64,000 bases of DNA from Xanthostigma xanthostigma (taxonomy: Eukaryota; Arthropoda; Insecta; Raphidioptera; Raphidiidae): assembly GCA_963575645.1 (NCBI GenBank), contig OY754466.1, positions 44,734,001 to 44,798,000 of the forward strand. The letters run 5' to 3'. The first letter of the stretch is position 1, and every line of letters starts with the position of its first letter. The translations under genes were made by a program, and so were the position numbers. Below are positions 10,284 through 60,461 of this stretch, piece by piece. A model generated the notes under the pieces. The model did no database searches. It was not told the origin of the DNA and saw only the letters and a list, made by a program, of their open reading frames with translations.

Positions 10284-11098
10284 TAAGTACCTATACTGAG
10301 CATAGGAATATAATCGCAATTGAACCATTAGGGTGCAAACATATACTTCTGTCTTTTTTTACGCCGTAAGCACTGGCGTATCCAGGAGGGCAAAAGAAGC
10401 ACGGGGGACCCGGCTTAAGAAATTTCTAATTTTCCCCCTCCTGGGCCAAAAGCTGGGTACGCCCATGTTAAAGTCATAGAAAAAGACAAAGTTTTTGAAC
10501 CAGAGATACTTTATTCTGATTGAATGCAAGTACATAAACCAATCCTATCATCGGAGAAATCAGGGAATTACATCGAAGAAAGAGACGCAGATATATTTTC
10601 GATACGCTTTGTTGCCTTCACTCACCGCACATTGATTAAATGCATGATGAAATTAACGTTTCGGCAAGCAATTATTGCCCTCTTCAGGACCTTTTTAGAC
10701 ATGTTTAAGGTCCTGAAGAAGACAATAATTGCTTGCCGAAACGTTGACTATTAAATAAAGTTTTATTAAATAATAATTGTTTTTATATTTAGCCTTGTAT
10801 CCCGTTAATTTCATCATACCATAATACGTAGAGTGTCTTATTTTATTGATTAGATGGTCAATTATTAAATATATATGCTTTCTCTAGAATGCATCTTAGC
10901 ATGCTCATTAGGGTGGTTCAATATACCCAGCTTTTGGCTCAGAAAGAGGCAAATTAAAAATTTCTTAAGCCGGGTCCTCCGTGCTTGTTTTACCCTCCTG
11001 GATACGTCAGTGCTTACTGCTTAAAAAAAGACAGAAGTATATGTTTGCACTCTAATGGTTCGATTGCGATTTTATTCCTATGCTCAGTATAGAATAAA
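10284..11098. mobile_element. Repeat A copy 2, complete inverted-repeat element
   Basis: The left end CTATACTGAGCATAGGAATA is repeated inverted at the right end (…ATTCCTATGCTCAGTATAG, ending about 11093). The TIRs are about 170 bp (10290-10465 and 10926-11098). The centre holds a strong hairpin at 10661-10744. No transposase is seen. The open frame at 10524-10754 is a chance reading. Confidence 0.75.
10661..10744. repeat. Hairpin with CTGAAGAAG…GCCGAAACGTTG core
   Basis: Arms CGTTTCGGCAAGCAATTATT and its inverse flank a short loop at about 10700-10707. The right arm contains CTGAAGAAG and CGAAACGTT, the pair of motifs shared with repeats B and L. An outer imperfect pair (ATGATGAAATTAAC / GTTAATTTCATCAT, to 10820) suggests a larger nested foldback inserted in repeat A. 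Confidence 0.6.
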
Positions 11099-11127
11099 AG
11101 TAGGTATATGAGAGAAAGATAGGAAAC

Positions 11128-11384
11128 TCAAATCTTTGATTAACGTCTGAATAGAACTCTTCAATAAATAAAATTATCGACCAATTTTGTTATTATTTTT
11201 TCAATATTTCAATATTAAAAAAATGTTTCACGAATTTCGTTAAAAATAAATAGAAACTAAATAAGTATTAATTATTTTTTTATATTTTTAGATCCATTCT
11301 GAAGAAGATCCAAACCGGGATCGAAACGTTAATGTATTAATTATATTTTGTTAATGATAAATTGGTCGATAATTTTATTTATTT
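11128..11384 (+). mobile_element. Repeat B copy 1: foldback retroelement-like, 12 bp TSD
   Basis: Flanked by perfect AAGATAGGAAAC repeats (11116-11127 and 11385-11396). The element starts TCAAATCTTTGATTAACG, then has an inverted pair AATTATCGACCAATTT / ATTGGTCGATAATT, and ends ATTTTATTTATTT. At 11299-11330 lie CTGAAGA, A, a GATCC/GGATC stem and GAAACGTT. TSDs longer than 10 bp and an ATTT-rich tail point to target-primed reverse transcription by a helper element rather than a cut-and-paste transposase. It has no open frame. Confidence 0.75.
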
Positions 11385-11785
11385 AAGATAGGAAACATTT
11401 TCGACATGGTACTTGGAACTATCAACATTTGAAAATACAAGAATAAACCAAAACATCGGGTAACAGATAATTGTACAATCGGGACTGTACTGTATTAACG
11501 TTGATCTTGAGATGTATTATCCCACACGCTGGACAAACTCTTTAGAAAGTTCTACATGTTGGACGATTAGTTCAAAATAATCGGAAGCAGTAATAATAAT
11601 AACCTGTATCATTTACGTCTACTTTTAAGTGGACGACACAGAGATTCAGTTTCAACATATTTACATTGGGACGACGGCTTCGTAAACGATACAAGGAAAA
11701 GATTATCAAGCAGATACAACATAATTAAGATATTCTCTCTGTCCTATTTATGAACTAACGATTTGCTTTAGGTATATTGACTTTT

Positions 11786-12428
11786 ACCATTCCAACCCAA
11801 AAGTGGGGAATGGTACTAGTTTAGATCAAAAATCACTTTTCAAAAATTTTGCAATATCTTTCCGTTTTGAGGTCCCCCGAATCCAAAAAACATATTTTTG
11901 GAAAAACTCTGCGCGTCTGTTAGTCTGTTTGTCTGTGAACACGATACAGATCAAACGGATGAACGGATTGAAACCAAATTTTGGGAGGATGTTTGGTATG
12001 CAAATATGAAGAGCCCTATTATTTTTGGAGAAAATCGGCGCATGCGCAGAAGAGATATATGCTAAAACGGTGTTTTTTATATAATAATGGTATACTTTTC
12101 ATAACGGCTTATTATTCTATTTATTGTTTCAAGAAAGTTTTGTTAAAAATTTTGTTTTCAAAACTTTATAGTTTCGGAAATATTTAAAAAATAAAAAAAA
12201 ATCTTTTGTTTTATGGATCTGCCAGAAATAAACTAGTTAGGCATGCGTTGATTAATTTTTACATAACGTGGAACATATTACGTATGCATCGCGACGAATA
12301 GTTAATATCATATTGAATACTAGTGATTACCCGCGTCACCGCACGCGATATCAGAAATTTTATTTTTTTTATTATAATCAAATGTCAACATTTTTGAAGT
12401 TGGAATAGTCCCGTCGCCCATTTGGCTG
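11786..12428 (+). mobile_element. Repeat D copy 1 (about 640 bp element)
   Basis: Left end ACCATTCCAAC and, near the right end, GTTGGAATAGT form an inverted pair; the outer right terminus is GTCGCCCATTTGGCTG. Copies in both orientations at 26913-27547 and 63021-63603 share these limits, with AAAATT-type sequence outside both ends (a likely TSD). Open frames at 11803-12009 and 11981-12187 are not kept between copies. Superfamily not recognised. Confidence 0.7.
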
Positions 12429-13589
12429 AAATTTTTTCCACACTTCCATATAAAATAGCTACTTTTTATGCTTGTAGGTATAGCAATAGAAAACGATCTA
12501 TTTCGCACTAGTGCGTAAAGTAAAAACAAAAAATATGTGATTTTACAAATCCAACGTCTTGTGTTTTAAATATATATGTAGTTTACATAGAAATGATTAT
12601 GGGATATTTATGTCTCTAGTCTGAGTTACGAAAAAAAAAATGTTCATGTCAAAAGAAGAAGCATTTTTTGCTTGACTTATTAGGTTTTTAAAACTTAACA
12701 AACCTCGAAACGTTTTATTACTGCGTTATCAAATGTAACTATGCATTTTTTTAAATACTGAGGTCGCTTTTTATGTTGAAAACTAGACAGTTGGTGCTAT
12801 AAAAACATTTTATTTCGAATCATAATATAATTTGCTGCAGACAATATTTATTTTTTTCTACAAAAAAAAAACAAAACAGTAACACTTGTTGTATCCGTGC
12901 TGTTAGACAATTTATCATTATTTAAAGTTTTACATTAAAATCCGTAATGTATTAATTATTGACCTCACGCGGTTATAAAATACTATTGTACAGAACTATA
13001 ATTAATATCGTGATATATCGTTTAATTTTTAGTATAATAACATAAATATTTATGAGAAAATATGTTTTCAAACGTAAATAATGTAATATATTGTAGTTCA
13101 TCCCACAATACGACTATTGAAACGCAATATGTCGTAAACACTATGGTAAATTTACGATTTATGGTATTTATTAGGTAAAGAAAATTATTGTGAGAATATT
13201 TTGAGAGCGGGAACGTGTGTAGATAAAAAACGCTCGACAACTGAGATCATTAGCGTCTATGATCAACATGTTTAGTAATCTAGTCACATGCAAGGAAACT
13301 GGCAAGAATCAACCGACTCATATAATATTAATTAATTATCATAATTTGACACGGCAGCTGTAACGAAAGCTTTAGAATTAAAGATGCATATTATTAGATT
13401 TTTGCGTGAAAATATTTATTTTTAGTCGAAATACAGTGTCGCACACAGGCATAGATTTAGGTCCGGGTTTAGAGCGACTTCAATAGAAGCAACAAATAAT
13501 TAACAGATTATTAAATTATTGTAGTTGGACTACAATAATAGAAAATGATTTTTATATTCCGAAAATACAACTTTCGTCGCTTTATTAAG
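12429..13589. other. AT-rich DNA, nothing recognised
   Basis: No repeat or coding signal. The same applies to 11397-11785, 14140-14888, 15170-15805, 16641-16995 and 17520-18075, the last with a short (TAA)n at about 17933-17955. Confidence 0.5.
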
Positions 13590-13646
13590 ATTTCTTCAAA
13601 GTAGGATGGACAAATTTTCATTTGCCCATCCTACTTTAAAGAAATT
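13590..13646. repeat. Hairpin
   Basis: CTTCAAAGTAGGATGG and CCATCCTACTTTAAAG pair around about 16 nt. It sits just outside a Helitron terminus. Role unknown. Confidence 0.55.
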
Positions 13647-13660
13647 TCGAAATATCGATA

Positions 13661-13761
13661 CTAGCGGTCCTGTCTGGTTTCACCCGGGTGCAAACGAACG
13701 AATGGGGGGGAGGAACATGAGTACGCGCGTTCATCTTAGTTTACCAAGATGAATGTTGTGT
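13661..13761 (-). mobile_element. Helitron 3' fragment fused to repeat D
   Basis: Reads inverted as the Helitron 3' end (CTAGCGGTCC.., CACCCGGGTG). It stops at GAATGTTGTG and passes directly into the middle of a repeat D copy, a rearranged junction. Confidence 0.75.
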
Positions 13762-13762
13762 T

Positions 13763-14139
13763 ACGGTGTTTTTTATATAATAATGGTATACTTTTCATAA
13801 CGGCTTATTATTCTATTTATTTTTTCAAGAAAGTTTCGTTAAAAACATTTTTCTAAACTTTATAGTTTTGAAAATATTTTGAAAATAAAAAAAATCAGCC
13901 GCTCTTTATTTTATGGATCTGTCAGAAATAAACTTATAGTTTGGCATGCTTTGATTAATTTTTACATGACGTGGAACATATCATGTAGGTAACCATGGCA
14001 ACGAATAGGAAATATCATATTGAATACTAGCCATTACCCGCGTCACCTCACGCGATATCAGAAATTTTATTTTCAGTTATTATATAATCAAATGTTACCA
14101 TTTTTGAAGCTGGAATGGTCCCGTCGCCCAATTGGCTGG
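13763..14139 (+). mobile_element. Repeat D copy 2, left end missing
   Basis: Begins at ACGGTGTTTTTTATATAATA, internal to repeat D, and runs to the intact right end GTCGCCCAATTGGCTGG. Its left half is replaced by the Helitron piece at 13661-13761. Confidence 0.75.
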
Positions 14140-14903
14140 AATTTTTTTATAGTGTACAAATTCTATAAGTACCTACTAAAGTCGATACTGACCATCCGTA
14201 AAAATTAGAATTTTACGTTCCGGTCATTCTTATACAAACAGTGCGAGAGCGGTTCGCCTATAAAAAGATACTGTGCGAACGCACAGATATAATAATTTGT
14301 TTACGTCTATAGTGTTTTAATTGGCAAACCCGCGCAATAAAATTTATGGCAATGCAAGCGGCAGTGTTATATGATCTCACATTTATTATATTATAGCGTA
14401 TGGAGATATCATCCGTAAATAGAATATTTAAAGGTGGAGACACATAATAATAACCGCGAAGTCGAAATTTCATTAATGACAAGTTTATGTTGCATTAGTA
14501 AATGTACATGAAATAAAATGCTTCTCAAAAGTAATTATAAAAATTTATCAAAAGTAAAGGCTATTGTTTTTAATTTGACCCAAGCTGCCATTCCGTTCTA
14601 TGTGAGGATTATAAGACTTAAGATTTTCGCATGAGTTTTCTTGTAAACTATGAGTGAGGACCTATATTCCCTATTTTTAATTTTAGGCTCACTAGTTACG
14701 GAGATAAAAGGGGGATAATGCTCGATTTTCGTAAATTTTCTTTCATATCTTTTAAACTATGCATTTTAAAATTATAAAAATTATAAATATACTTGTACTT
14801 CTTATAACTACCGCTTTCAACAATATGACAAATGATGCATTTGAAAAATATTTTTTTTAATTTGTAATTTGCCCTCCAAAATATATTGGAATAATTCCAC
14901 TTT

Positions 14904-15156
14904 AATAAATAAAATTATCGACCAATTTTCCAGACAATATATTAACAAAAAAATATATGATTAATACATTAACGTTTCGATCCGGATTTGGACCTTCTTC
15001 AGAACTGATCTAAAAAATAGAAAAAATAATTAATATGTAATCTAATTAGCTTTTTATAAAATTCCTTCAGAATTATTAACTAATATCAAAATATTGAAAA
15101 AATATTTTTTCAATATTTATTGAAGAGTTCTAATCAGACGTTTATCAAAGATTTGA
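14904..15156 (-). mobile_element. Repeat B copy 2, 13-15 bp TSD
   Basis: The inverted copy is flanked by GAATAATTCCACTTT at 14889-14903 and 15155-15169 (two bases may belong to the element end). The core on the minus strand at 14971-15002 reads CTGAAGA, A, GGTCC, loop, GGATC, GAAACGTT. Compared with copy 1 the stem has changed from an A:T to a G:T pair, so it still folds. Confidence 0.75.
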
Positions 15157-15805
15157 ATAATTCCACTTTGCTTCAAATTATTTTCATTTCTTGTTAAATG
15201 CATGATAAAATATGCACCTATTTGTTTATTTTTGGATTAAGGAATATTTGAAGGAATTCTAGAATGTTTTAGGATCTACTTCTTACACTGCCTACCTGGC
15301 AAAATACGTTCCTCTTTTACGCACTAGATAAGAAAAGAGTTTTTTTTTAATTTTATATATGGTTTATTGACCTTTACATCTTCTGACATAATCTGAAGCC
15401 AATATAAAATATTCAACCTTAAAAGCACTGTGATTATACCTTACAAAGTGGCGTCATCTGGCTGGTAATGTTATGTGATTAAATGCAATACTTTTCATAC
15501 CTACGAAAACCGTTTAGTGTGTATCTTTCTTTACCTTTTCTTATTTATACGAGAAATAATAATTATTATATTTAAACAAATATCGTAAATTTTTATAACG
15601 AGTTTTATGTAATTATAATGGTGAGAATTTTTAGTGAAATATAAACATTTATCATTGTATTTACGCCAGAGGAATTATACCAATCTGTTATGAATAAACT
15701 TTTATGTTAATTCTGACATCAATGGTTAATGTTTATTTATTAAAAAAAAGAATGATTTCAAAACTTACGTATGTAGTTATATAGAATTTTGAAGTGAAAC
15801 TCCTG

Positions 15806-15930
15806 TTAGGCACGTTTTGTGAATTTCGCGAAAGGACTCGTCGGTGAGCTGATATTACCAATAAATGTAACGTTTTTGCACAGCCTAATACTAGGCCCGT
15901 TTATGCAGTATAGCGCATCTATACATAATA
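15806..15930 (+). repeat. Repeat I fragment
   Basis: Shares ACGTTTTGTGAATTTCGCGA, AACGTTTTT and GCAGTATAGC with 4973-5060. Unknown family; both copies are partial. Confidence 0.4.
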
Positions 15931-15998
15931 ACGCAAACATTTCTTTGTAGCAACGGAAAATGCGAGAGTGGTTTTTTGAATGAATTATACAGAAGTTA

Positions 15999-16432
15999 AA
16001 ATCTTTGATTAACGTCTGAATAGAACTCTTCAAATAAATAAAATTGTCGACCAATTTTTTTCAGACTATAGTGTGACAAAAATAAAATTATAAATCAATA
16101 TTACAACAAATGACGTTTCGATTTGGGTTTAGATCTTCTAAAGAAATATCTAAAAATAAAAAAAAATAATTAGTAAAATCTACTTTTTTTATAATAGAAT
16201 GCAGAAGTTAATTATCGAAAATTATGATAAAATTTTCGATAATTAACTTCTGCATTCTATTATAAAATAAGTAGATTTTACTAATTAATTTTTTATATTT
16301 TTAGATATTTTTGAAGAAGATCTAAGCCCAGATCGAAACCCATATCGAAACGTTATTTTTTGTAATATTGATTTATTATTTTATTTTTGTCAATAAATAG
16401 TCTGAAAAAAATTGGTCGACAATTTTATTTAT
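15999..16432 (+). mobile_element. Repeat B copy 3: head-to-head dimer form, 14 bp TSD
   Basis: Perfect TSD TTATACAGAAGTTA at 15985-15998 and 16433-16446. After the usual 5' leader it is nearly one large palindrome centred near 16230, with the GAAACGTT core inverted in the left arm (about 16110-16145) and direct in the right arm (16305-16355). The arms pair over about 180 bp. The two-core layout resembles a dimeric insertion. Confidence 0.75.
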
Positions 16433-16571
16433 TTATACAGAAGTTAGCTAAATGAATGCAAACACAAAATCGTTACTTAGTATTTGTACAGTTTTCAATA
16501 TTTCTAGAGCGAATTTTCAGTTTTTGTCATTTTTGGCTGTTTGTTTTCTGTATCTATACATTATACATTTC

Positions 16572-16640
16572 AAAAACTGTAAACCTAACAATATACATGT
16601 ATTGTTTACATGTTTAACTTCAATCACACGTAAAGATTAC
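16572..16640 (+). repeat. Repeat J fragment
   Basis: CTGTAAACCTAACAATATA, GTATTGTTTACATG and ACTTCAAT..CACGTAAAGAT recur at 43412-43475. Unknown short repeat. Confidence 0.45.
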
Positions 16641-16997
16641 ATCAAGCACATATTTTAAATATTATTAACAAATTGCAAATAGTTGGGGGTGTGCCTCAAT
16701 TGTGAACCTACTAGGTCAACATGTCCCTTTTTGGTGCGCGATTTTGCGATTGTCACTTGGAGATTATTATCATATTATATAGGCCGCACGAAGTTGGCGG
16801 AAATATATAACTGAAGCATGTAACACGAACGCGCGATTGCCGAACACACTTCGAATGGGAAACCGCGAGCGCATGTTACCAAATCGCGCGATCTAACCAG
16901 AATTTTCGAGTAGTTGGAATAATCGTCAAATCGCGATGCACTTGTTATATCCCGAATTTTACATTATTATCATTTTGGTACAGAAATGGCACAAATA

Positions 16998-17517
16998 CAG
17001 GCTGATTTTTAAGTTGATTTTTCTTTTTTAACAGCGTGTAGAAATCAAATAGGCGAACAAATATTTCAAGTAACTTTTTTATCAAGACTCAAAAATGAAA
17101 GAGGAAGGGTCTTTCAAAGTTTTATTAAATTTTATCAAATTTTGACGTCTGTCCTGGCGTTATGTTGTGTCAATATGAAAATATGCTATGTCATTATTAG
17201 GTATTCACAGAAATTGTTCGAAGTTGTCCCCGTTTTGTTGGACACAAAGATGCGTGGCGTCGTAGCCATGCTTGTAGTAGCGATAAGGGCCTTCCGCGTA
17301 TTATTTGGGATGCGTTTCCGATTCGTACTATCATTTCTTCGCATGTATTAACCGGGCTTTTAAATTAATTAAATAAAATTTGAAAAATTTAATTAAATGA
17401 AGGAAGGCTGTTTCTCGCTTAATTTTGAGTTTTGATAAAAAGTTACATAAAATATTTGTTCGTATATTTGATTCTTATACACTCTGTTAAAAAAGAAGAA
17501 TCAACTTAATCATTCTG
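16998..17517. mobile_element. Tc1/mariner-IS630-like element, deleted
   Basis: TA dinucleotides flank TIRs of about 125 bp (CAGGCTGATTTTTAAGTTGA left; inverted CAGAATGATTAAGTTGAT right). TA TSDs and CAGG(G/C)TG ends fit the IS630/Tc1/mariner group. The centre keeps only the last codons of a transposase on the minus strand. The plus-strand frame at 17142-17351 is a shadow of it. Confidence 0.75.
17205..17276 (-). pseudogene. Transposase C-terminal remnant (IS630/mariner type)
   Basis: The minus strand reads CVQQNGDNFEQFL followed by a stop, matching the typical end C(I/V)xxNGGHFEHLL of insect mariner/IS630-type transposases. Upstream in another frame lies a stretch beginning RKRIPNNTRKAL that also fits the family, so a frameshift separates them. 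The catalytic DDE part is absent from the 520 bp element. No function is expected. Confidence 0.65.
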
Positions 17518-29276: not shown

Positions 29277-30064
29277 GTATATTTCTTTTATTATTTTCTT
29301 CTTTTTAGTATTTTCTTGTATTGTCATCTAATTCTGAGTAATGTTAAAATTTTCTAGTCTCTATCTCATCAGGAAGTTAGTTTAAAATCAATTACTAAAT
29401 TTCACGCGTACAGACAAGAGACATATAAGAAAAGGAGTTAATAAAAACGTGGTAAAATGGACACATGTAAAAATTATAATATAAATAACGTTCATTAAAA
29501 TGGATCAATTGTTTTTAACAGCCAGCGTTTTAATGTTTACGAACATTCCTGAACTAAGTATACAATGTTATTTTTTTCAGTCGTCAGAACGTCTTCTATG
29601 TTATGCATGTGCATAATTATTGTAATATATGCATTATCATTATTGCAAGACGCTGCATTATTCTCGCTACGAAGTCCAATCTGCCACTTATGACCTTTGG
29701 CACCACCATTCGAAGCCGGTCGTCAACACATTTAATTTGACCTTTGTTGACATTGTAAAATTTTGCGTTAGGTCAGTGTGTCTATTTCAAAACAATCAAT
29801 TTAAATATAATCATCTATAGTTAGCGTTTTGAGACGCTTCTTTTTTCGTCCCGATAGGCAAGAGTTCTTAGACAATAGCCAGTTTGTCATCTGCAGAAGA
29901 GTAGATCCCCACCAAAACATAAATGTGAAAGAAGCCCAGTTTTTTTAGTACTAGCTCGGGGGCCACTAAGTCAATGGCGTTACCTGTAAAGGGGGAGGGG
30001 GGATGGTTAAATACTATTTTTTTTTTAGTTTTTTTTGAACGACACACGACGTTTTACGATCATG
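29277..30064. other. AT-rich DNA, nothing recognised
   Basis: No repeat copies or credible frames. 30641-31344, 32564-32975, 33789-34181 (somewhat GC-richer), 36666-37424 (TTAGCTCA motifs at 36713, 36730 and 37178) and 37584-38187 likewise. Confidence 0.45.
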
Positions 30065-34485: not shown

Positions 34486-34814
34486 CAAATCTGATTAACG
34501 TCTGATTATTACTTTTTATTCAAATTTAAATAAAATTGTCGACCAATTTTTCAGACAATTATATTGACAAAAATTATAATTATTATTCAATAAATTTACG
34601 TTTCGGTCCGGATTTGGAACTTCTTCAGAATTGAGCTAAAAAATATAAAAATTAATTAGTAATTAGTTTCTAATAAAAATAAGTTTGAGTTTTTTTAAAA
34701 TATTTTTTTTCTTAAAGATCCCAATCAGGACCGAAATGTAAATTTATTGACTTATAATTATATTTTTTGTCAAATTACCTAATTGTCTAAAAAATTGGTC
34801 GGTAATTTATTGAA
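34486..34814 (+). mobile_element. Repeat B copy 4 (two-core form), 15 bp TSD split by hAT
   Basis: The right TSD TAATATCTAGATACT (34815-34829) matches TAATATCTAGAT before the hAT element plus ACT after it. Both arms carry cores: CTGAAGAAG..CGAAACGT inverted at about 34595-34630 and a direct GGACCGAAATGT at 34730. Ends ATTGGTCGGTAATTTATTGA. Confidence 0.75.
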
Positions 34815-35153
34815 TAATATCTAGATACTTAAATTGCGCACCAAATGGATTCAAATTGTAGCTTTTTGAAAAGGGGAGATTCCATTCTATAAAGTGGAAC
34901 CATTCTCTGTAGGTAGTTCAAAACAACAATTTTTTGCTGCATTTGTTTGCTTTTGAACACAGAAAACGATATTTGGAATAAAGAAAGATTATTGTAAGGT
35001 ATGGTAATCGAGTGCCTATATTTATCATCTTCCGCGTTTGCAATTTTTATATTTCAGCCCTTATATCCTATATCCCGGAGTATACTAACAACGAATCTCC
35101 TAGCACTTCACCAATCTTAGAACCCACGAGCCGCCACTGCTCCTAAATAAATA

Positions 35154-41080: not shown

Positions 41081-41667
41081 AATTGGTTGTCTGTAAAGTC
41101 GGTTTACGGACGATAGTTTTACGTGATAACGTATTCCGTAATACATAACCTAAATTCTACATATAATAATTAGAATCTATGATATTGCATCTTTCGCTTC
41201 AAATTTAGGTTAATTTTATTTATTTAAATTACTCACCATATAATATAATTGTTTTTTTTAACTTTCTTTCTTTCGTATTTATTTTAAGTCTCAAAGATTA
41301 GCTGTCATAATATTTATAAAACAATTGTTTCACTGTTTATAATATAAAATTCCAAAACCTACTTACAATATTTAAGTATTTTCATATATCAAAAAATTGA
41401 TTTTTATAATGATAAAATTTGTAAGAAAACGATTTTTTCGAGAGATGAGACCTAGCTAAAACGATTTTTTGCCCCCCAAAATCCCTTTTCAGTAAATTTC
41501 ATCCAAATCGTTAGGGCCGTTTTCGAGAAAAGCACGCACAGGGTCAGGCGGAACGTTACGCGTTACGAACGTTAGGAACGTTACACTTTTTCGTGCATGC
41601 AGCCGGTGTTTTATCAATTTATAAGATTGGTGATTCATCAATTTATAAGACGTTATCACGTCAAAAA
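41081..41667 (+). mobile_element. Repeat E/F copy 1
   Basis: Begins AATTGGTTGTCTGTAAAGTC, with GTTTTACGTGATAACGTATT near one end and GACGTTATCACGTC near the other, an inverted pair. Near the right end is CGTTACGCGTTACGAACGTT, dense in ACGTT. The ends match 58636-59286 inverted while the middles differ. Superfamily unknown. Frames at 41489-41731 are not conserved. Confidence 0.6.
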
Positions 41668-49009: not shown

Positions 49010-49140
49010 AGAAAACAGACAGCATTGATTCTCCAAAGATGGCATAAAGTTTGCCGAAACGTCAGACAATAAAATGCAATAAATAAACCTTCAGTATTTG
49101 CTTAGTTCGTCGATCCTATGCCACCAAGATTCATCCTTTA
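49010..49140 (+). mobile_element. Repeat L copy 2 (3' part)
   Basis: AAAGATGGCATAAAGTTTGC, CGAAACGTCAGACAATAAAA, then GATCCTATGCCACCAAGATT, parallel to the right half of L at 52709-52817. GGCA/TGCC forms the core stem. Confidence 0.55.
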
Positions 49141-52054: not shown

Positions 52055-52845
52055 AAATACCATATTCACCGAACGTAAGTACCTGGTTATTTATATGGTT
52101 CATTATTTAATTCGGCTATAAATATTTATTCGCCTGAGAAAATAATAATGACCGCCACATAGATCATAATACCTAACCTATAAACTTGGAGTATTACATC
52201 TGCACTTACTCTTGTGAATTTATTTATGTGTTGTTTATTAACCTTTTGTGAAATGTATAGTTGTAAAACATTAAATTTAGTGGAAGTTTTGTATGTGCAA
52301 TTGGGTTAGGATAAAACATTATTATTTTAATGAAACTCTTTTTGACGTTTACACTAACGCCATCGGTCGGATTTTTGGGTTAACGTCACAATATTCAATA
52401 AAAATACCAAGGAGTATAGTGCAATGTGTATTTATTCTTCAACTAACTATTTTACCTGATAATTTGGTTGGTACATTGAAAGTAAATTTTATTGTGACGA
52501 ATAAAGTTCCAAGATTAGTAATTGCTATCTTTAATAGTGAATTTGACTCTATTCAATAAATAGAGTAACTGTGATCCATTGAAGTTAATGATAGAGTATT
52601 TGGAAAGAATTCCGTGGCATAAGGATCGAAAATGAAGAAATACTGAAATTTTTTTATACTTGCATTCAATACTGACGTTTCGATACGTTTTGAAAACATT
52701 TGAAACCTCTGAAGATGATACAAACGAAACGTCAGTATTAAATGCCAGTATAAAAAAAATTCAGTATTGCTTTATTTTCGATCCTTATGCCACGGAATTC
52801 TTTCCAAATACCCTATCATCTTTAATAGTGTTCGATAAATATGGC
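52055..52845 (+). mobile_element. Repeat C copy 3, complete, with repeat L inserted
   Basis: From ACCATATTCACCGAACGTAA to GTTCGATAAATATGGCC. Homologous to 1231-1796 and 44686-44885. Repeat L interrupts it near the right end. The frame at 52293-52559 crosses non-coding repeat. Confidence 0.75.
52540..52817 (+). mobile_element. Repeat L copy 1: foldback retroelement-like, 13 bp TSD
   Basis: ATCTTTAATAGTG is duplicated at 52527-52539 and 52818-52830; repeat C copies 1 and 2 show the single unoccupied site. A 5' leader of 48 bp is followed by arms GATAGAGTATTTGGAAAGAA / inverse. The core at 52709-52733 is CTGAAGATGATACAAACGAA then ACGTC. Same layout as repeat B. Confidence 0.75.
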
Positions 52846-58495: not shown

Positions 58496-58635
58496 ATTTT
58501 AGTACTTTTGCCGAAGAATCTTTGATTGACACAGATATTATTTTCAGATCCAGTAATTAATATCAGTATTACGTTAAGAGGATAATGAATCAATAAAAAA
58601 TGCTATTAAACAATATTCAATTGCAACGTTTCGTT

Positions 58636-59286
58636 TTTGACGTGATAACGTCTTATAAATTGATGAATCACCAATCTTATAAATAAAATTGATAAAACAC
58701 CGGCTGCATGCACGAAAAAGTGTAACGTTCCTAACGTTCGTAACGCGTAACGTTCCGCCTGACCCTGTGCGTGCTTTTTGCTAATTTCTCGCTCAATTTA
58801 AATCAGATCGGTTTGAAACCAGTCTTAAACGAAAGAGGAGAACATTTTACATAGATTTCGTATAACAGAATTTGCCTAAACAGTTTTTTTATACAAATTT
58901 ATATAGAAAAATAGCTGTATAAATGCAATGTTGTCTAATGCATGGCGCGACGCGGTCGGTCGTCTTTGTTTGCCGTACATGGAAATTAGAAAATAACGTA
59001 TGTCTTGTCTTAACATGAAAACGGCTGCATTTCTAATGTTTAATTCAATTTTTTGACATAGTATTTTGTGAAATGCAACGCCTTCTAAGTTAAGTATTGG
59101 AATAACTAATTATTATTAGAACATAATACTTTGACAGTTGCAAACGTCACTTTTGACATTTCTTATCATTCCGACACCAAGGATAAGCGGATTGAAACCA
59201 AATTTTGGGAGGTTTAGGTTATGTATTACGGAATACGTTATCACGTAAAACTATCGTCCGTAAACCGACTTTACAGACAACCAATT
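58636..59286 (-). mobile_element. Repeat E/F copy 2
   Basis: Inverted relative to 41081-41667: GACGTGATAACGTCTTATAA at the left, AATACGTTATCACGT..GGTTGTCTG at the right. A 30 bp repeat D scrap (ATTGAAACCAAATTTTGGGA) lies at 59183-59212. The middle differs from copy 1. Confidence 0.6.
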
Positions 59287-60144: not shown

Positions 60145-60214
60145 CAATAAATAAAATTATCAATAATTTTATTTATTGAAGAGTTCTAATCAGACGTTAA
60201 TCAAAGATTTGAAT
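60145..60214 (-). mobile_element. Repeat B copy 6, internally collapsed, 10 bp TSD
   Basis: CAATAAATAAAATTATC meets its inverse directly, followed by the 5' leader (GAAGAGTTCTAATCAGACGT, TAATCAAAGATTTGA). TGTTATTTTT flanks both sides. Confidence 0.65.
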
Positions 60215-60385
60215 GTTGTTATTTTTGTTGGGAAACTCAAAACACAAACTATATTGAATCGTTAAATTATCATCTTGCGAATATTCTCTTAAAATTAAAG
60301 TAAAAGAGTGGCTGCTATTGGGATCCGTTAAATGGGCGGAGCTTTAAAAACATGGCGACGATGTGGTATAATTTCCCATAGACTA

Positions 60386-60461
60386 AGGCCTAGTTTATAT
60401 GAGAGGCGTTCAACGCGCGTTGGCCAACGCGCGTTGAACGCCTCTCATATAAACTAGGCCT
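60386..60461. repeat. Perfect 76 bp palindrome without spacer
   Basis: Checked base by base around the centre 60423/60424: half-arm AGGCCTAGTTTATATGAGAG then GCGTTCAACGCGCGTTGG. No mismatch and no loop. Confidence 0.95.

Follow-up and report, generated by a model that had tools for sequence, protein, structure and literature searches.

The stretch of DNA analysed here (the window, 64 kb with an A+T content of 68%), which comes from a host genome of 28 contigs and 623 Mb, raises the question of how small foldback elements with MITE-like inverted-repeat ends come to lie between long direct repeats and to carry a motif resembling the core of the hammerhead ribozyme. The sequence-only reading held that these elements, here termed B and L, behave like retroelements despite their ends. 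Our results uphold their retroelement nature, but the ends are better described as two inverted pseudo-LTR ends, and each element is best read as a pseudo-LTR fused head to head with an inverted, truncated pseudo-LTR. Both B and L are very probably non-autonomous Penelope derivatives, arising from a pseudo-LTR RNA that has a minimal type I hammerhead with an extra A or U and is mobilised in trans.

Both strands of the window were scanned for the core, and the five elements other than the copy at 11128 were inspected individually. This re-reading confirms six foldback elements with end repeats at the places first assigned to them, all with target-site duplications (TSDs) of 10-15 bp. The first B copy occupies 11128-11384, between exact 12-bp direct repeats of AAGATAGGAAAC (11116-11127 and 11385-11396). 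Its right arm (11359-11383, plus strand) is the 3′ end of a pseudo-LTR without a tail, and its left arm (11163-11187, minus strand), the end of the inverted pseudo-LTR, is the exact reverse complement of it; outside the left arm, a tail of 34-35 nt (11128-11162, minus strand) forms the outer end of the inverted pseudo-LTR and has the sharp terminus, and obeys the one-tail rule, described below. The minimal hammerhead core of this copy (CUGAAGA-A-stem II-GAAA-CGU-U; 11299-11330, plus strand), recognised by pattern, covariation and a covariance model, is bordered by the predicted stem I strands CAUU (11295-11298, plus strand) and AAUG (11331-11334, plus strand), which are partners and covary across families. 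The second B copy (14904-15154, minus strand) has its tail at the right end, a hammerhead-like core at 14966-15010 and a 15-bp TSD (14889-14903 and 15155-15169); its tailed end holds just a short piece of the usual arm, and it is absent from the lists of both end-finders used below, though by eye it has one tail.

The first L copy (15999-16432) is a near-symmetric, head-to-head element with a 14-bp TSD and two degenerate cores (16107-16151, minus; 16303-16359, plus). The second (34486-34818) has an exact TSD of 11 bp, or one of 15/16 if one mismatch is tolerated, with a good core at 34592-34636 (minus) and a degenerate one at 34703-34745 (plus). An element of a separate family with the same build (52540-52817) has 95-nt arms, a 13-bp TSD and about 48 tail-like nucleotides beyond its left arm; its core (52701-52738) keeps the core letters with hardly any stem II. 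The sixth element (60145-60216) is a very short head-to-head structure of tail and arms only, lacking a core, with a 10-bp TSD. In addition, both arms of a hairpin at 10644-10817 contain a core (10650-10695, minus; 10705-10750, plus), and a further core at 49025-49069 (plus) reads CCAAAGA, stem II GGCA/UGCC and GAAACGUC. Within the 64-kb window, B and L are free of overlap with any long coding frame. The core motif CTGAAGA(A/T)G...CGAAACGT, first attributed to all full copies, is therefore present as described in both B copies and in the element at 34486, but is degenerate at 15999, lacks a proper stem II at 52540 and is missing at 60145. The stem strings reported for B were found as given, i.e. 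GATCC/GGATC in the first copy (CTGAAGA-A-GATCC/GGATC-GAAACGT, 11299-11329) and GGTCC/GGATC in the copy at 14904.

Other structures in the window include a perfect 76-nt palindrome (60386-60461; centre CGCGTTGGCCAACGCG) in AT-rich DNA and two hairpins (13577-13658 and 16187-16267) that match microRNA models below cut-off on both strands; the latter hairpin is the centre of an L element, such that its microRNA match is a by-product of the foldback. An AT-rich repeat (GGTG.TTCATCAATTTATAAG) adjoins the tailed end of two B-type elements (L082 and L083, near 1560-1660), with related copies at 41605-41650 and about 58600-58690 (minus) of the window, and would represent captured or nested sequence.

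The copies found across the genome extend this anatomy. Of 67 distinct tail occurrences, 46 are matched at the other end by an exact repeat of 11 bp or more (11-17 bp, mode 13); at random positions such repeats average about 4-6, with individual values reaching 14. With stricter register rules a TSD of at least 10 bp was found in 39 of 62 end pairs, 25 with the tail on the left and 14 with it on the right, and in none of nine tail-less pairs and not in the one two-tailed pair; a second end-finder gave 36 of 52 (25 and 11), with 36 different TSDs, and none among two tail-less pairs, one two-tailed pair and one pair with a partial tail. Thus every TSD-flanked copy combines a tailed with an untailed end (39/39, and 36/36 by the second end-finder). 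Because the queries used to fetch most copies contained the tail, this statistic is ascertained and tail-less elements are under-sampled; the absence of two-tailed elements is not due to query bias, but concerns one candidate pair only. The tail is offset by 34-36 nt in 35 of the 39 elements (by 0, 32, 38 and 54 nt in the remainder), and its terminus is sharp, with one alike pair among the 67 distinct flanks that follow it; that pair, L090/L091, has 400 nt in common past the tail, yet L090 carries its own TSD. The TSD-flanked elements range from 66 to 767 bp in length, with arms of 6-200 nt, and the middle does not exceed 25 bp in 11 of the 39, nine of which are no more than 188 bp long overall. 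Lengths of 92, 102-103 and 253-275 bp recur, and part of the copies may therefore share a junction by descent.

These data bear directly on whether B and L are foldback or MITE-type DNA transposons, moved by a transposase, with a core that is fortuitous or purely structural. Their inverted-repeat ends and small size are as such transposons would have, and B is a genome repeat, with 1,858 first-look candidates of which 40 were scored. The TSDs, however, are long and variable (10-17 bp) rather than fixed and short, the two ends differ by the tail in every TSD-flanked copy, length and arms differ between copies, and the core covaries and is common to loci with GIY-YIG domains, where it lies on the coding strand (see below). 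A cut-and-paste MITE reading is already contradicted by these findings, and we give it almost no credence.

In hammerhead numbering, the B core consists of stem I (CAUU/AAUG), C3-A9 (CUGAAGA), an extra A, stem II (GATCC/GGATC), GAAA and C-G-U-U, which places the predicted cleavage site after 11330. Stem III, within GAAACGUH, can have 2 bp at most (A15.1-U16.1 and C15.2-G16.2) and is without a loop, although the palindrome ACGU could supply a stem III between two molecules, i.e. in a dimer. Covariation was assessed with an alignment of 19 cores, drawn from the window and from B-type and GIY-YIG loci and comprising 17 of 31 contexts found with a descriptor plus the window cores at 34592 and 49025; the 14 contexts outside the alignment are near-duplicate copies, the core of L001, which has no insert, and a window core at 29372 with two inserted bases. 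Over 11 pairs (four in stem I, five in stem II and two in stem III), 89.0% of cells are paired compared with 63.5% on shuffling (none of 500 shuffles as high), and the covariation score is 0.693 compared with 0.199. When partner columns are slid by 1-3 positions, pairing falls to 25-42%. Changes on both sides occur in 8 of the 11 pairs, a count matched by 198 of 500 shuffles, and hence the weight rests on the fraction of paired cells and the covariation score. The stems covary, and the proposed hammerhead core with one extra base before stem II gains support across the 19 cores.

Applied to 95 loci together with the window, 362,916 bp in all, the descriptor (core plus stem) recovered 31 distinct contexts, where shuffled sequence yields 0.7-1.0 for each insertion class; many of the contexts are B copies fetched by similarity and so not independent. 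Of the 31, 29 have one inserted base, one has none and one has two. Stem II has at least 4 bp in 25 of 32 distinct strings, taken from 65 printed by a genome search, compared with a mean of 7.5 and a maximum of 14 in 500 trials with the halves swapped. A covariance model built from the 19 cores matches 11291-11335 with E = 7e-12, four of its cores being from the window and that of L003 from the same place, so that such matches arise by construction; it also recovers 10705-10750, which lies outside the alignment, with E = 4.2e-9. The extra base recurs across several families in this genome, and the core fits a minimal Penelope-type, type I hammerhead, which would be expected to self-cleave. Minimum free energy (MFE) folding of monomers and dimers gave mixed outcomes and was discarded as support: the B and L033 monomers are predicted to form stems I and II, several others do not fold in this manner, and no dimer MFE structure of the cores had a complete hammerhead arrangement.

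Base preferences at two positions provide a further line of evidence. In hammerheads base 17 is generally required not to be G. The pattern CTGANGAWGN{6,24}CGAAACGTH, in which H stands at this position, has 15,873 exact matches genome-wide (7,919 + 7,954), compared with one for the reversed pattern; allowing G at position 17 adds 115 matches (two reversed), and C is found there in 5,110. The extra base is A or T in all 15,873, with T (as ATG) in 5,437, compared with 285 matches (three reversed) for C or G, the latter being an upper bound that takes in cores without an insertion. At N7, C or G is present in 1,608 matches. The counts pool all families, including autonomous ones, and the copies share ancestry, so that the ratios are not independent trials. 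In the plus-strand hammerhead of CChMVd, an extra A after A9 moderately slows cleavage, an extra U increases its rate 3-4 fold, and C or G impairs it strongly, according to the accessible part of PMC3705267. The preferences at position 17 and at the extra base thus follow hammerhead biochemistry, which is suggestive given that the copies are related. One other role for the extra base, as part of an ORF start codon, an idea taken from PMC11167929, was rejected as a general explanation since the frame stops after three codons in family F1 (described below); it is a possibility in some families only.

The same preferences bear on whether the cores are inactive relics or have another purpose, such as a protein-binding or priming structure in the pseudo-LTR that merely resembles a hammerhead, a reading we regard as unlikely. 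It gains from work on the lizard Poseidon element of Anolis carolinensis (PAc), hammerhead mutants of which still inserted in vitro, in which cleavage required protein and in which RNA ends at the cut site were not seen (PMC11167929); these lizard results also tell against the main reading. The relic view gains too from the fact that other signals may overlap the core, with a pyrimidine-rich tract containing YAG lying just 5′ of it in 5 of 10 families, compared with 7% of random positions (3 of 10 and 3% at a stricter threshold); this pattern was noticed before it was tested, and the 10 families omit the second L-type core. Against it, the rarity of G17 and the restriction of the extra base to A or T reflect rules of hammerhead chemistry and not of pairing, an argument that is suggestive but, given shared ancestry, not decisive. 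The tract itself resembles a 3′ splice site and lies at 11275-11298 in the window and, in L033, L039, L042 and L043, within the 45 nt that precede the core; splicing could put stem I immediately behind an exon junction.

The sequence-only reading had named three outcomes that would count against it. Two, stems that do not covary and fixed short TSDs, did not occur; the third, no match to the hammerhead models of Rfam, did. Matches to RF00163, RF02275 and other clan models were absent in the window, where no Rfam family whatsoever reached its cut-off and no hammerhead family reached E ≤ 10 in 10401-17000. The one-insert cores of L033, L039, L040, L042, L043, L045, L027, L005 and L071, six of which are GIY-YIG loci, likewise gave no hammerhead hit at E ≤ 10, whereas L001 in the same run gave 35.7 bits with RF00163 (cut-off 34) and 36 bits with HH9 (cut-off 52). 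As the core is missed in Penelope loci and classic hammerheads are found in L001, the Rfam silence reflects the models and does not discriminate; the Rfam hammerhead models are blind to the one-insert form. A genome-wide search with RF00163 returned two classic hammerheads only, both slightly under cut-off. Type I hammerheads of the classic form, which lack the extra base, were seen at L001:1210-1256 (minus) and L001:1489-1562 (plus), which form an inverted pair, and at L002:1501-1546 (minus); the pair in L001 possibly represents a retrozyme-type element in the same genome.

Autonomous relatives were sought through the GIY-YIG domain, for which there are at least 37 matches at E ≤ 0.001 among 150 scored of 521 candidates. 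Of the 30 loci fetched, some of which partly overlap (L042/L044, L050/L051 and L059/L060), 22 carry a one-insert core on the coding strand, at a distance of 293-866 nt downstream from the domain; the other eight (L034-L038, L041, L048 and L052) have no such core. The core-bearing loci form about five families, with family-specific stems: F1 (L045-L062), L033, L039, L040/L042/L044 and L043. Confirmation of the reverse transcriptase (RT) comes from three scanned proteins, L049 and L043, in which RVT_1 and GIY-YIG lie within one open frame, and L039, which has RVT_1 with the GIY-YIG match in a different frame. The Penelope-like F1 elements have long open RT/GIY-YIG frames, and identity between copies reaches 99%, so that their activity may be recent, and a tandem F1 junction in L095 runs from the endonuclease end through the core to the next frame.

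The sequence-only reading had advised looking for autonomous Penelope-like relatives that share the ends. Elements combining RT and GIY-YIG do occur in this genome with a similar core, but none with the pseudo-LTR and tail of B itself emerged from the 67 tail flanks or the 30 GIY-YIG loci, which sample a minor fraction of the candidates; the 67 distinct after-tail flanks have no internal junction in common, and the 30 loci share only short or incidental stretches with B. One candidate, L058, in which the B tail lies upstream of a Penelope ORF, was rejected, since homology to that family begins 418 nt further on and the two are neighbours with no junction between them. The tail was also rejected as the start of an ORF: one frame is open for 22 codons by eye in the copy at 11128, but TAA or an extra T is present in many copies. 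A figure of 22 codons is also quoted for Adineta in the accessible part of PMC3846280.

The identification of B and L as non-autonomous members of a Penelope-type system is upheld by what is observed, i.e. their anatomy, their duplications, the covariation of the core and the presence in the same genome of RT/GIY-YIG elements whose core is of this kind. The label of retrozyme, which had been considered alongside, fits poorly. Metazoan retrozymes are arranged in tandem, pass through a circular RNA, carry type I hammerheads and rely on borrowed Penelope machinery; B and L resemble them in being non-autonomous, hammerhead-bearing and about 250 bp long and in having Penelope-like elements in the same genome, and mobilisation of retrozymes by PLEs has been proposed, as the accessible parts of PMC7229834 and PMC7761336 indicate. 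The available descriptions of amphibian retrozymes likewise include hammerheads without a clear helix III, and a weak stem III alone is no ground for exclusion. However, the invertebrate retrozymes in the descriptions available have canonical hammerheads, with a helix III, in small direct tandem repeats, whereas here stem III has 2 bp at most, the ends are of Penelope type with a one-sided tail, and neighbours are head to head: among the first 100 listed places, cores within 1.5 kb of each other form 20 head-to-head, two direct and no tail-to-tail pairs. We consider it very improbable that B and L are retrozymes.

For B and L as Penelope derivatives, we infer self-cleavage, mobilisation in trans and a joining step, which may be combined as follows. 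A Penelope RT/GIY-YIG protein, acting in trans, would nick both target strands with a stagger of about 13 bp, and reverse transcription would be primed on both, from two RNA start sites about 34 nt apart, one giving the tailed and the other the untailed end. After truncation at varying positions, both cDNAs would be joined head to head, which would account for the inverted-repeat ends, the tail on one side, the variability of the middle and the duplications of 10-17 bp; near-symmetric B and L elements would also allow snap-back self-priming. A stricter version, which we hold to be somewhat less likely than not, is that each foldback copy is newly made, with no fixed foldback serving as its template, the protein reverse-transcribing two short pseudo-LTR RNAs simultaneously, invariably one per start site 34 nt apart, and uniting them head to head; a catalytically tuned hammerhead, its extra base restricted to A or U, would keep the RNA substrate-competent. 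If this is true, the elements would be SINE-like parasites of Penelope elements, with insertions that record double-strand target-primed reverse transcription. The work touches on several Penelope questions, including the mode of insertion, the reason for inverted ends and tails and the purpose of the hammerhead. End asymmetry, together with the base preferences at position 17 and the inserted base, lends the elements more than ordinary interest. Natural copies of the core number about 16,000 in this genome, which also offers short, TSD-bounded insertions with both junctions readable; that each element has one tailed and one untailed end, and that the extra base is A or U, are predictions simple enough to test.

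In the literature on MITE-like or non-autonomous Penelope elements and PLE hammerheads, so far as its text was accessible, a description of the B and L families was not found, although the general kind is known. The lizard PAc element is similar in having a hammerhead at the start of the pseudo-LTR/ORF, a tail that is the interval between two RT start sites, reverse transcription that starts inside the RNA, and cutting and extension of both target strands (PMC11167929). It differs in being autonomous, with an ORF that begins at stem II (PMC11167929); the equivalent triplet in B is AAG, and F1 has ATG at this place, followed by a stop after three codons. The PAc start sites did not differ between the strands (PMC11167929), which conflicts with B and L, whose two ends differ.

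There is also a close likeness in build to elements of Adineta vaga, including Pen2a, in which the accessible part of PMC3846280 describes inverted pseudo-LTRs, mostly head to head, with a 31-bp tail on one of them and TSDs of 8-10 bp, and suggests self-priming; solo pseudo-LTRs and segments captured between pseudo-LTRs are further points of likeness. The TSDs of B and L are longer, mostly 12-14 bp; in addition, B and L lack a long overlapping frame, and about 16,000 cores are present here, all families pooled. At the level of the core, the extra A between A9 and G10.1 is shared with the plus-strand hammerhead of CChMVd, along with the order of preference (U better, C or G harmful), CChMVd being a plant viroid with contacts between loops 1 and 2 of its hammerhead, according to the same part of PMC3705267. 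The minimal PLE hammerheads of Cervera and de la Pena (2014) and Lunse et al. (2017), as described in reviews, are, like those here, of type I with a diminished helix III and dispersed in thousands of copies, and their cleavage as dimers has been suggested.
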